Source: Alphaproteobacteria bacterium (GTDB lineage Bacteria > Pseudomonadota > Alphaproteobacteria > Geminicoccales > Geminicoccaceae). From it: 41,442 nucleotides of DNA. Where the stretch lies: assembly GCA_030431615.1 (NCBI GenBank), contig JAUIID010000020.1, positions 1-41,442 on the forward strand, given 5' to 3'. A program made the position numbers and the translations under genes. Position 1 is the stretch's first letter. Each line of letters starts with the position of its first letter. Shown here one piece after another: positions 36,367-39,778 of this stretch. A model generated the notes under the pieces. The model saw nothing but the letters and a program-made list of their open reading frames with translations. It did no database searches and was not told the DNA's origin.

Positions 36367-36573
36367 GCTTGGTTTCCGCCACAGACATCTCAACTCATGC
36401 ATGAAGATCGAAATGTTTCGAACCAGATCTTGCGACGCTCTCCAGCGGGCGACCAGCGCAACAAGAGGTGCAGAGCATACCGGCAATGGCGTGATGAGCG
36501 ACCATCGTCAGCGTTGACGAAACCTTGCCACTCATGCCACTCTGGTGCGATTCTGGATGGGGCATCGTCGCAC

Positions 36574-38751
36574 ATGGCCAGCCCGCTCCTGCGCACTGCG
36601 GCTCTCTTTACCGGCTCGCTGCTCGGTGGTGCGGTCGGCGCGGTCGCGCTGGGTGGTGTCGCCATACCGGTCGACATTCTGATCGAGGCGGTTTTCGCTA
36701 ACCGCGAAGCGGCGGAACGGCGCGATATCAAGACGTTCATCGGGTTGGTTGCCAACGATTTGAGTATCGTCGGCCCGCGGGATGAACGCACCCTCGCCGC
36801 TGTCTGCAACAAGGTCGATCCCGCAATCCAGCGTTTCGGACCGACCTACAGCCGACTCGCCGAGTTCGGCCTCAACCCTGCCAAGGCCACGGGCGAGGTC
36901 GCACCGCATCTTCATTTCACGACCAAGAGCGAACGCACCGAGCTGGAGATTTGGTGCCTCAAACTGATCCGGCACTTCTACGAACGGCTTCCCCGGCACG
37001 CGGCGCTTCTGAACGAGATGCTGCCCGAACTCTGGACGGTACTGCTCAGACGTATCGACAGCATTCAGGATCTGGCCACCACCATGGCCGCCAACGACAC
37101 CGAGCGGAACCGGTTGCAGGCCGAGGTCAACGCCCTCCAGGCAAATGACGCCATTCGCGACCTTGCGATTGTCAGCCTCCTGCAGGATATCGGTGAGCGA
37201 ATTGGCGACCGCTCATCCTATCCGGATCAGCTGCGCCGCGCCGGAGAACGCTATCGTACCCTGCTCGCCGAGTCCGAGCGTCCACGCAACCTGGCGCCCG
37301 AGTTCGAAACCATACGCCAGCAAGTTGCCGTTCTCATTCGCGATGGCCTGCTCGACGACGCGGAGAAGCTGCTGAGTGACCTCAGCCAGCGGATGGCGAC
37401 ATGGCGAGAGCAACACCAGGCGATGTTGCATCGGGCCCAATGCGACGAAGCAGCCATCCTCGGCGAACGCGCGCTGATCGCCGAAGGTCGCCTGCGCTAT
37501 CGCGACGCCGCCGTCCTCCACGCGAATGCTGCGGATCTCACCGACTTCGACCCCGGGACGAGCTGGCATTACCGATGCGAGCAGGGCAACATGCTGCTGG
37601 ATCACGGCCGCGAGTTCGGCGACAATAACGCCCTCACCGAGGCCATCGCCGTCTACGAGCAGACGCTCTCACTCGTTCCTCGCAGCGGCCGGCCATACGA
37701 CTGGGCCAGGGTCCAGAACAATCTCGGCAACGCGCTACGAGCACTGGGTGAGCGCGAGCATGGCACAAAAGACCTCGAGCGAGCTGTCGAGGCCTACGAG
37801 CTGGCGTTGCTGGTCCGTCGCGACGACGATGTTCCCGACGAATGGGCGATGACCCAGAACAATCTGGGCGCCACGCTCGCGGCAATCGGCAAACGGGAGA
37901 GCGGCACCTCTATTCTCGAACGTGCCGTGGAGGCATACGAGCGGGCGCTCACCGTTCGCAGTTTGGAGCACGATCCAGACGGTTGGGCCACCACCAGACA
38001 GAACCTCGGCACGGCGCTCGCCGCGATTGGCGAGCGCGAGAACGGCACCCTCACACTCCAGCGAGCCGTCGACGCCTACGAAGACGCCCTCATTGTCCGC
38101 ACCCGCAAACGTGCGTCCTTGAGCTGGGCGTTGACGAAGAACAACATCGGCGATGCGCTGCGGATCATGGGTGAGCGCCAGGAGGATTACATTCTCCTCG
38201 AATGCGCGGTCAAGGCGTTCGAGGACGCGCTTCTCGAATATAAGCGCGAGCGCGTCCCCCTCGATTGGGCGATGACCTGCCACAACCTCGGCATCACACT
38301 GTTCGCTCTCGCTATTCGCAAGGACGACATCAACACGCTGCGAAGCGCGATCCAGTGCAGCGAGCAGGCGCTGCTCGAATATGACCGGGATCGCGTACCT
38401 AGAGACTGGGCCATGACCAAGAATGCTCTGGGCAACGCGTTGGCCGAGCTCGGCAACAGACTCGGCGACACCGAACTTCAGCAACGGGCAATCGAGGCTT
38501 TCGACGACGCCCTGCGCGAGCGTGGACGCGACATCGACCCGCTTTCCTGGTCCGATACGCAGCTAAATATCGCACTCACCTGGTTGCAGATCGGTCGGCG
38601 GACCAAGGATAGTGGTCAGCTGCGTCTCGCGCTCGAAGCGATCGACGGTGCGATCGACGAGTTCCGCAAAGCCGAATCGACGGCCAAACTCGCGACAGCC
38701 AACGGGTTCCGCGAGGAGATCCTCGCGGAACTCATTCCCACCCATGGCTGA
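36574..38751 (+). CDS. TPR-repeat protein with N-terminal hydrophobic segment and helical domain
   Basis: 725 residues from the ATG at 36574; the frame is open to 36397 but that part looks non-coding. Residues about 8-35 are hydrophobic and Gly-rich (GSLLGGAVGAVALGGVAIPV) and could span the membrane. About 40-330 is a helical region I do not recognise. The C-terminal part, about 328-712, is eight tetratricopeptide-like repeats, most exactly 47 residues long, built on WAxTxNNLGxAL, ALGER, LERAVEAYExAL. Third-position GC is lower than in surrounding genes. Such regular TPR arrays often serve as sensor or scaffold parts of bacterial immunity and signalling proteins; no effector domain is visible here. 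It is followed by unusual repeat arrays and convergent with brnTA. Confidence 0.88.
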   Translation: MASPLLRTAALFTGSLLGGAVGAVALGGVAIPVDILIEAVFANREAAERRDIKTFIGLVANDLSIVGPRDERTLAAVCNKVDPAIQRFGPTYSRLAEFGLNPAKATGEVAPHLHFTTKSERTELEIWCLKLIRHFYERLPRHAALLNEMLPELWTVLLRRIDSIQDLATTMAANDTERNRLQAEVNALQANDAIRDLAIVSLLQDIGERIGDRSSYPDQLRRAGERYRTLLAESERPRNLAPEFETIRQQVAVLIRDGLLDDAEKLLSDLSQRMATWREQHQAMLHRAQCDEAAILGERALIAEGRLRYRDAAVLHANAADLTDFDPGTSWHYRCEQGNMLLDHGREFGDNNALTEAIAVYEQTLSLVPRSGRPYDWARVQNNLGNALRALGEREHGTKDLERAVEAYELALLVRRDDDVPDEWAMTQNNLGATLAAIGKRESGTSILERAVEAYERALTVRSLEHDPDGWATTRQNLGTALAAIGERENGTLTLQRAVDAYEDALIVRTRKRASLSWALTKNNIGDALRIMGERQEDYILLECAVKAFEDALLEYKRERVPLDWAMTCHNLGITLFALAIRKDDINTLRSAIQCSEQALLEYDRDRVPRDWAMTKNALGNALAELGNRLGDTELQQRAIEAFDDALRERGRDIDPLSWSDTQLNIALTWLQIGRRTKDSGQLRLALEAIDGAIDEFRKAESTAKLATANGFREEILAELIPTHG

Positions 38752-38758
38752 AGCCCGA

Positions 38759-38903
38759 AGTCGTGCCGGATGCGACAGACAGGTCGGGTCTGTCGCATAT
38801 AGCGCGACACCTGCCGTGGCTTGTCGCGTATAACGCGACACTTACGCCCCAACTGTCGCATACAACGCGACACCTCTGCCGGGATGTCGCGTTAAATGCG
38901 ACA
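38759..38903. repeat. Array of 19-bp palindromes at 31-32 bp pitch
   Basis: Four 19-bp units TGTCGC-N7-GCGACA begin at 38791, 38822, 38854 and 38885, for example TGTCGCGTATAACGCGACA (38822-38840). The arms are perfect in all four and the centres are A/T-rich. A degenerate fifth unit at 38759 has only its right arm intact (TGCGACA). Steps are 32, 31, 32 and 31, mean 31.5 bp. The 12-13 bp spacers are unrelated in sequence. It lies 7 bases after the TPR stop and between convergent genes. Confidence 0.9.
38770..38798. repeat. Long-arm hairpin overlapping the first palindrome units
   Basis: Perfect 11-bp inverted repeat ATGCGACAGAC/GTCTGTCGCAT with a 7-base loop. Its right arm is shared with the left arm of the 38791 unit, so in RNA the two hairpins exclude each other. 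It may end the TPR transcript, although no T-run follows. Confidence 0.6.
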
Positions 38904-38910
38904 GTTCAGG

Positions 38911-39005
38911 GCGAACGAACCCACCAAACCGACGAGCGAACCCACGGATTCGACGATCGAACCCGGGAAATCGACGATCGAACCCAAGCTCGAGCGAACG
39001 AACCC
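38911..39005 (+). repeat. Tandem 20-21 bp direct repeats with core CGAACCC
   Basis: Five GAACCC cores at 38917, 38938, 38959, 38980 and 39000 (steps 21, 21, 21, 20). The two central units are nearly identical, sharing CGACGATCGAACCC. A partial copy GAACGAACC recurs near 39097. Short ORFs run through the repeat, but the 20-base last step and poor codon bias argue against coding. The rest of 38752-39163 holds no convincing gene. Confidence 0.8.
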
Positions 39006-39163
39006 AAGGGCCCGCAAGTCTTTGATCCGCCGTCCCTTTTCGCTATTTCCTACGGCCGCACCGCAGCTCGAGCGAGCCCGGGACCCGGAATCTGCCGAAC
39101 GAACCGAAGCCGCCCTTGCGCTTCGGGCCGACTTATGATAGGAATATTATCTGCGAAAGTTCG

Positions 39164-39520
39164 CTACTGGCCGGTCCGTCTCGCATGCTCCATGTAGCCG
39201 CGCAGGATTGCGTTGAGACGGGTCTGGTAGCCAGGGCCTTGGGCGCGGAGCCAGTCGAGGAGGTCCGCGTCGAGGCGAACGCTGATCCGTTCCTTGCGGG
39301 GTGGCCTGACCACCTCGGCATGATCCCAGAAGGTCGGGTCATTGCCGGCGTCGTCCGGGTCCATGGCGATCTGCCGGTCAAGTTCCGCTTCGTTGGTTGC
39401 ATCGACACGAGGCCGGTCGGTTTGCCCCGACGCCAGCCGGTAGCGACCGTCCGCCTCCTCGACCAGCACGCGCCCGTCAGGCAGGCCGATCGCCCGTACT
39501 GTCCTGCCGCTCTCGCGCAT
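39164..39520 (-). CDS. brnA: BrnA-family antitoxin
   Basis: 118-residue antitoxin of the BrnT/BrnA type II system. The C-terminal domain is clear: RKERISVRLDADLLDWLRAQ followed by GPGYQTRLNAILRGYM, the ribbon-helix-helix-like DNA-binding part. ATNEAELDRQIAMDPDDAGN is the usual preceding segment. The ATG at 39520 has GGGAG ten bases upstream. The same frame is open upstream through brnT to 39778 because brnT is shifted, so a fused 204-residue product could also be made. It probably represses the promoter upstream of brnT. Confidence 0.85.
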   Translation of the reverse strand: MRESGRTVRAIGLPDGRVLVEEADGRYRLASGQTDRPRVDATNEAELDRQIAMDPDDAGNDPTFWDHAEVVRPPRKERISVRLDADLLDWLRAQGPGYQTRLNAILRGYMEHARRTGQ

Positions 39521-39778
39521 AGTGTCGTTGCTCCCGCTGGTTGGCCTTGCGCGCCGAGATAAACGCCGTCGACCACCGCGCAGCGTGTAGGTGACATGAA
39601 AGAGGCGACCTTCCACCGGACAGAGGATGACGAAGCGCTGCTCGCCGTAGTCCCGCCGACGATCCTCGACCTCGATCGCTGCCGGGTCGTCGAAAACGCC
39701 GATCAGGTCGAGAAAATCGACGCCCTGATTGGCAATGGTCCACTGCCGCTTGGCATCGTCCCACTCGACAGCGATCAT
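39477..39778 (-). pseudogene. brnT: BrnT toxin gene, apparently frameshifted
   Basis: The frame from ATG 39778 encodes a good BrnT N-terminus (VEWDDAKRQWTIANQGVDFL, FDDPAAIEVEDRRRDYGEQR, then EGRLFHVTYTLRGG). The conserved C-terminal end FISARKANQREQRHYARER is found in the -1 frame from about 39563 to the stop at 39477. So a single-base change near 39565-39580 separates the two halves. BrnT is a RelE-like RNase; without its conserved tail the current product is likely inactive and runs in frame into BrnA. A sequencing error or rare ribosomal frameshift are alternatives; no slippery heptamer is evident. In an intact gene the end would overlap brnA by 44 bases, as usual. Confidence 0.8.

Follow-up and report, generated by a model that had tools for sequence, protein, structure and literature searches.

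The palindromes at 38759-38903 of the window (the whole 41,442-nucleotide stretch that we analysed) belong to a larger structure: each such array makes up the left half of an oriented composite of about 400 bp. The sites of this composite have a fixed number, order and helical phase and are conserved where they stand, and between sister species the palindrome arms have switched sequence while the layout is kept. In our judgement, the chances are about even that the array serves as the operator half of a nucleoprotein element, dispersed over the chromosome, that controls an outward promoter in one genus of Alphaproteobacteria; the class was assigned from protein similarity.

Layout of the composite element

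The initial annotation had described four perfect TGTCGC-N7-GCGACA units and one degenerate unit in the window, spaced 32-31-32-31 bp with unrelated spacers and lying between convergent genes. All of these points were reproduced exactly, including the dissimilarity of the spacers (Table 1). Beyond 38903 the element continues with five 21-bp direct repeats (38912-39005) and then a promoter-like end near 39155. Terminator calling in the window returned none. The right-hand convergent neighbour is a 204-aa ORF with BrnT at residues 6-73 and BrnA at residues 157-196; the two appear to have been joined by fusion or a frameshift.

Table 1. Parts of the window's copy of the element and the genes flanking it
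Feature	Position	Strand	Remarks
Dyad unit A1	38759-38777		Degenerate AGTCGTGCCGGATGCGACA, 2 mismatches; place and spacing fit family unit 1
Dyad unit A2	38791-38809		Arms perfect
Dyad unit A3	38822-38840		Arms perfect
Dyad unit A4	38854-38872		Arms perfect
Dyad unit A5	38885-38903		Arms perfect
Direct box B1 (CGAACGAACCC)	38912-38922	+	Begins 8 bp past A5
Direct box B2	38933-38943	+	Offset +21
Direct box B3	38954-38964	+	Offset +21
Direct box B4	38975-38985	+	Offset +21
Direct box B5	38995-39005	+	Offset +20
T-tract	39037-39040	+	About 30 bp beyond B5; putative terminator only
Sixth B-type box (TCTGC-CGAACGAACC)	39096-39105	+	Precedes the promoter-like end; family-conserved
Promoter-like right end	39116-39151	+	Class II variant TTGCGC-N17-TAGGAA, TGATAGGAATATTATC; weak in the window copy, strong in most others
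TPR protein gene	36397-38751	+	Left convergent neighbour; flank, outside the element
Single ORF with matches to BrnT (toxin) and BrnA (antitoxin)	39164-39778	-	Right convergent neighbour; flank

Genome-wide, the tandem pattern of a dyad followed by the next arm at normal spacing occurs 128 times per strand, compared to 0 in the reversed control. The window's genome, a fragmented assembly of 5.33 Mb in 314 contigs, contains 38 arrays (that of the window and 37 others), and one or two further arrays may exist. A 39th lies on JAUIIK010000209.1, a contig labelled Chloroflexia. Because the end of this contig shares a 99-bp overlap of 100% identity with contig C181 of the window's genome, it is apparently a mis-binned contig from the same organism (locus L079). 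Near-matches to the dyad are found almost exclusively inside the arrays (at least 175 of 197, with around 13 expected by chance), and there are essentially no isolated sites. Two Akkermansia matches (L080 and L081) turned out to be simple tandem repeats of a different sequence and were set aside.

The components follow a single order in nearly all copies: five dyads are separated by 8 bp from five direct boxes, after which come a middle region, a further box and the right end. The 19-bp dyads (TGTCGC-N7-GCGACA) are spaced 32/32/32/31, and the direct boxes (CGANCGAACCC, consensus CGACGAWCGAACCC) are spaced 21/21/21/20 in most copies; the further, sixth box reads TTTTGC-CGAACGAACCC in the family. 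Over the 39 arrays, 145 of the 146 intervals between dyads measure 31 or 32 bp (32 in 105 cases, 31 in 40, and a single 34), with the 31-bp interval adjoining the boxes in nearly all copies. Five dyad units are present in 32/39 copies and the distance from A5 to B1 is invariant in 38/39. The initial annotation was right to dismiss a CRISPR array: the spacers are 12-13 bp compared to about 25-45 bp in CRISPR, and arrays with a set number of five units are repeated at 39 loci.

In the middle region, TTTT is found in 18/39 copies compared to 2.8 expected, often around 30 bp after box 5. We considered a forward terminator there and rejected it, finding a position-conserved T-tract with weak hairpins.

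Some minor features of the layout were also observed. In L056, L057 and L058, the outermost dyad is shifted by one helical turn, standing around 42 bp rather than 32 bp from its neighbour. The box region (38904-39033 and its equivalents in the other copies) carries GANTC, the CcrM site, at 14.6 per kb compared to 1.6 per kb in the background. Finally, the motif TCACGANCGCTTA recurs in either orientation in around 15 copies, both in the spacer between units 3 and 4 and around 80 bp left of unit 1; it is present in sister species too and is possibly another binding site.

The right end and the genomic surroundings

The right end of the family is sigma70-like and points outward (TTGAC-N17-TATAAT-like). 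In most copies its -10 lies inside a TAGG-N8-CCTA-like dyad, and the window and four other copies have a TGATAGGAATAATATC-like end instead. A sigma70 score of at least 9/12 is reached by 20/38 copies of the window's own genome and by 14/15 sister copies, compared to 1.4% of control segments. The window copy's right end scores just 7/12, and a sigma70 consensus scan of this copy gave no match. With its degenerate first dyad and no promoter by consensus scan, the window copy is a weak member of the family.

This end usually points into the 3′-terminal part of a convergent gene, in the antisense direction, and less often into a downstream gene. The convergent placement in the window had been taken to mean that the array is not an ordinary promoter operator. 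The placement itself is correct, but the conclusion is doubtful since most copies end promoter-like.

Using gene calls from a purpose-made simple hexamer model, we found that the element lies between convergent genes in 15/36 copies with both neighbours called, compared to 26/155 in the background (p = 0.003). The right-hand neighbour points towards the element in 27/36 copies (p = 0.004). We also considered whether abutting stop codons are specifically targeted and discarded the idea, as convergent gaps at these loci are small anyway (middle around 14 bp). Leading-strand orientation was likewise discarded: with GC skew positive in 16/38 copies, the orientation of the element gives no signal.

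The genes beside the 39 arrays are miscellaneous and have no common function. A link to TPR or ParA genes is not supported. The ParA-type gene placed around 2.3 kb from the window array is not there either; the neighbours are the TPR gene, BrnT-BrnA and a GCS2 glutamate-cysteine ligase. Near-identical arrays scattered among unrelated neighbours, or spacing that varies freely among homologous loci, had been named as evidence against phased binding sites. The scatter is real, but the spacing is rigid and no copies are near-identical.

Conservation of the sites and distribution in the genus

Across 180 units, the information content is 1.8-2.0 bits per base in the arms and mostly 0.1-0.8 in the spacers. 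From copy to copy, arms differ by 1.1%, spacers by 54% and cores by 45%. The contrast holds for the five closest pairs of arrays, in which 44/255 spacer positions and 0/300 arm positions have changed. Gene conversion accounts poorly for the intact arms, because it would have homogenised the spacers too, and so does neutral decay after insertion, because the arms would have been hit. With nearly constant arms and divergent spacers and cores, the dyad sites therefore appear to be kept where they stand by purifying selection. Conserved sites, unconserved DNA between them and constant phase, all seen here, are the marks of a protein-bound regulatory array.

A DNA search with one locus matched the boxes, and not the dyads, in two congeneric genomes (G001 and G002, which are 82-86% complete and have many arrays at contig ends). 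Most of the complete arrays at these loci nonetheless consist of five 19-bp dyads at 31-32 bp spacing, with half-sites TGNGYCR (e.g. TGAGTCGATATATGCGCCA). The same five boxes follow, and then TTGAC-N17-TATTATTCCTA. The gap between dyads and boxes is 18 bp in the sister species compared to 8 bp in the window's species, a difference of one helical turn. Together with the intervals in the window's species, this agrees with the earlier proposal of helically phased dimer sites. Because the sister species keep the layout while the palindrome sequence has changed, our data suggest an undescribed protein-DNA assembly that co-evolves with its putative binding protein.

Two copies occupy orthologous positions in the sister species: the right-hand genes share 76% amino-acid identity at one (L072/L090), and the identity is 64% at the other (L035/L099). 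Elsewhere copies are missing. The element is absent from the glutamine synthetase locus in G002 and from the CobT locus in both G001 and G002, and in these cases the gene is directly followed by a different gene. Such absences fit mobility or rearrangement equally well as regulation.

The distribution is narrow. Paired dyads occur in 1/385 genomes of the class sample, and paired boxes in 3/3 genomes of the genus and in 0/28 others of the family. The composite was not found in any genome searched outside the genus, and 400 kb of G007, from another genus, contained no analogous arrays when searched de novo. With a box-array profile, the three genomes of the genus gave 42, 11 and 10 matches, and other genera gave weaker ones.

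In three genomes of two sister genera the boxes are looser, and G020, G405 and G010 carry scattered loose clusters of the motif TTTTGCACGAACGAACCCGAG as well as in-frame occurrences inside genes. Because 5/12 TAGG-N8-CCTA sites of G020 lie 76-263 bp from TTTTGCACGAACGAACCCGAG clusters, the boxes and the TAGG dyad seem to predate the phased composite. Among the in-frame cases are cysS-like and gltX-like genes of G010 and G020 (L137, L155, L167, L168 and L175), where TTTTGCACGAACGAACCCGAG is read as LHERTR, CTNEPE or ARTNPS, as small repeats inserted into proteins. Another genus of the family has box-like repeats (GGGTTCGTTCGGCGGTTCGGCGGGTTCG) immediately upstream of 16S rRNA genes (G007:C1:119-204 and 2343226-2343311).

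Competing explanations and known systems

The reading that we rank first is regulation by a rigid complex. A putative dimeric protein A would bind the five dyads on a single face of the helix and a second putative protein, B, the five direct boxes, likewise in phase. A and B together would form one rigid complex, which would control the sigma70-like promoter at the right end, presumed to be active. The data fit phased arrays that are protein-bound, under selection and joined to an outward promoter; as the selected function we put regulation first, ahead of mobility in second place and chromosome organisation or a roadblock in third. Several findings run counter to it: the lack of a common function among the neighbours is unusual for a regulon, most of the promoters would yield antisense RNA with no evident use, the window copy is weak, and some copies are missing in sister species.

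A non-autonomous MITE-like element, with dyads and boxes serving as sites for a transposase or accessory protein and copies spread into intergenic gaps, is possible but improbable. The loci of the copies are indeed non-homologous, subfamilies can be distinguished (L045/L061/L064, L035/L041 and L057/L058), the element is missing from two loci in sister species, and the enrichment between convergent genes is what tolerated insertions would give. But near-identical recent copies are missing, the closest pair being 12% apart in the spacers with arms intact, and two copies have stayed at orthologous positions even though the flanking proteins are just 64-76% identical. Neither terminal inverted repeats nor target duplications were noticed when the ends were inspected by eye, the neighbours include no prominent transposase family, and the two loci without the element are not clean empty sites, as the next gene differs. 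Less probable still is a chromosome-organising or insulator element, in which stoperator-like or BIME-like sites would act as landmarks for a nucleoid protein or as roadblocks between transcription units. Around 40 sites per genome with mixed neighbours, a preference for convergent ends and no isolated sites would suit such a role. The promoter-like end of most copies would be needless for landmarks, the orientation is independent of GC skew, and canonical parS is present separately.

The remaining explanations we consider very improbable. As RNA, the dyads would give a row of hairpins in a transcript, as the initial annotation had raised, and the array indeed folds very stably (z = -6.6); perfect inverted repeats, however, fold stably regardless. 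The idea is weakened by an A.C mismatch at the closing pair in 29% of units, with the two sides anti-correlated (p = 7e-5), and by a spacing that is held to helical turns. At four related loci no Rfam covariance model matched at the gathering threshold, save a tRNA outside the element, and the Rfam match in the window is at chance level only. It is equally improbable that the elements are relics or decoys of an origin or partition locus of plasmid type, with iterons and a centromere-like array. Iteron origins have direct repeats at around two turns beside a promoter, and par loci have phased arrays beside a promoter. The five boxes at 21/21/21/20 reproduce the former layout, and arrays adjoining promoters the latter. 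An iteron origin, however, stands once per replicon with its initiator gene, whereas 38 copies lie on chromosomal contigs of the window's genome, and the 39 copies are between ordinary genes. No replication initiator stands out among the array neighbours, Rep and Par families are not prominent there, and none is near the window array. A viral, plasmid or phage source was rejected as well: viral contigs contain neither the dyad pair nor the box pair, and plasmid and phage records gave no match to the window element. The partition-site reading of the initial annotation fails, given that no ParA gene adjoins the array and canonical parS lies elsewhere, in two perfect copies in each of G000, G001 and G002.

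If protein-bound, the elements in which A and B would form a rigid complex offer, in each genome, a natural series of around 40 replicates of a nucleoprotein switch with strict geometry, and point to an unrecognised chromosome-scale control layer. Some 400 half-sites per genome have changed sequence between close species with the architecture fixed, which makes the co-evolution of a DNA-binding protein and its set of sites directly testable. Tentatively, the around 40 five-plus-five complexes may be one distributed regulatory or structural machine, an undescribed system at the level of the genus, in which hundreds of sites and their protein would have switched dialect in step between sister species, with the geometry held to the helical turn.

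A literature search on palindromic arrays between convergent genes found nothing, and one on the box sequence gave unrelated short sequence matches only. Among known systems, BIME, BOX and Correia-type sequences are composite intergenic repeats. Like our element they are dispersed, extragenic and modular, with tens or more copies, some of which carry promoters or protein sites. Unlike them, the element has five plus five sites in fixed helical phase with randomised spacers and invariant sites, and its arm sequence is replaced between sister species. Iteron origins and par centromeres share the phased direct repeats next to a promoter and the dyad at the -10 region, but the element has around 40 chromosomal copies with no rep or par gene attached. 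In stoperators, the sequence differs between immunity groups along with the repressor. The short intergenic palindromes of REP and of the GTAG- and CGTC-tagged repeats (PMC3733652) resemble the extragenic palindromes of the element, in which the GTAG or CGTC tag was not seen and which are phased, oriented and fixed in number. The stoperators of Cluster A mycobacteriophages (PMC9283540, PMC6550527) are likewise many dispersed repressor sites; they are asymmetric and belong to phage genomes, whereas the element has symmetric dyads in five-fold phased chromosomal arrays with an attached promoter.
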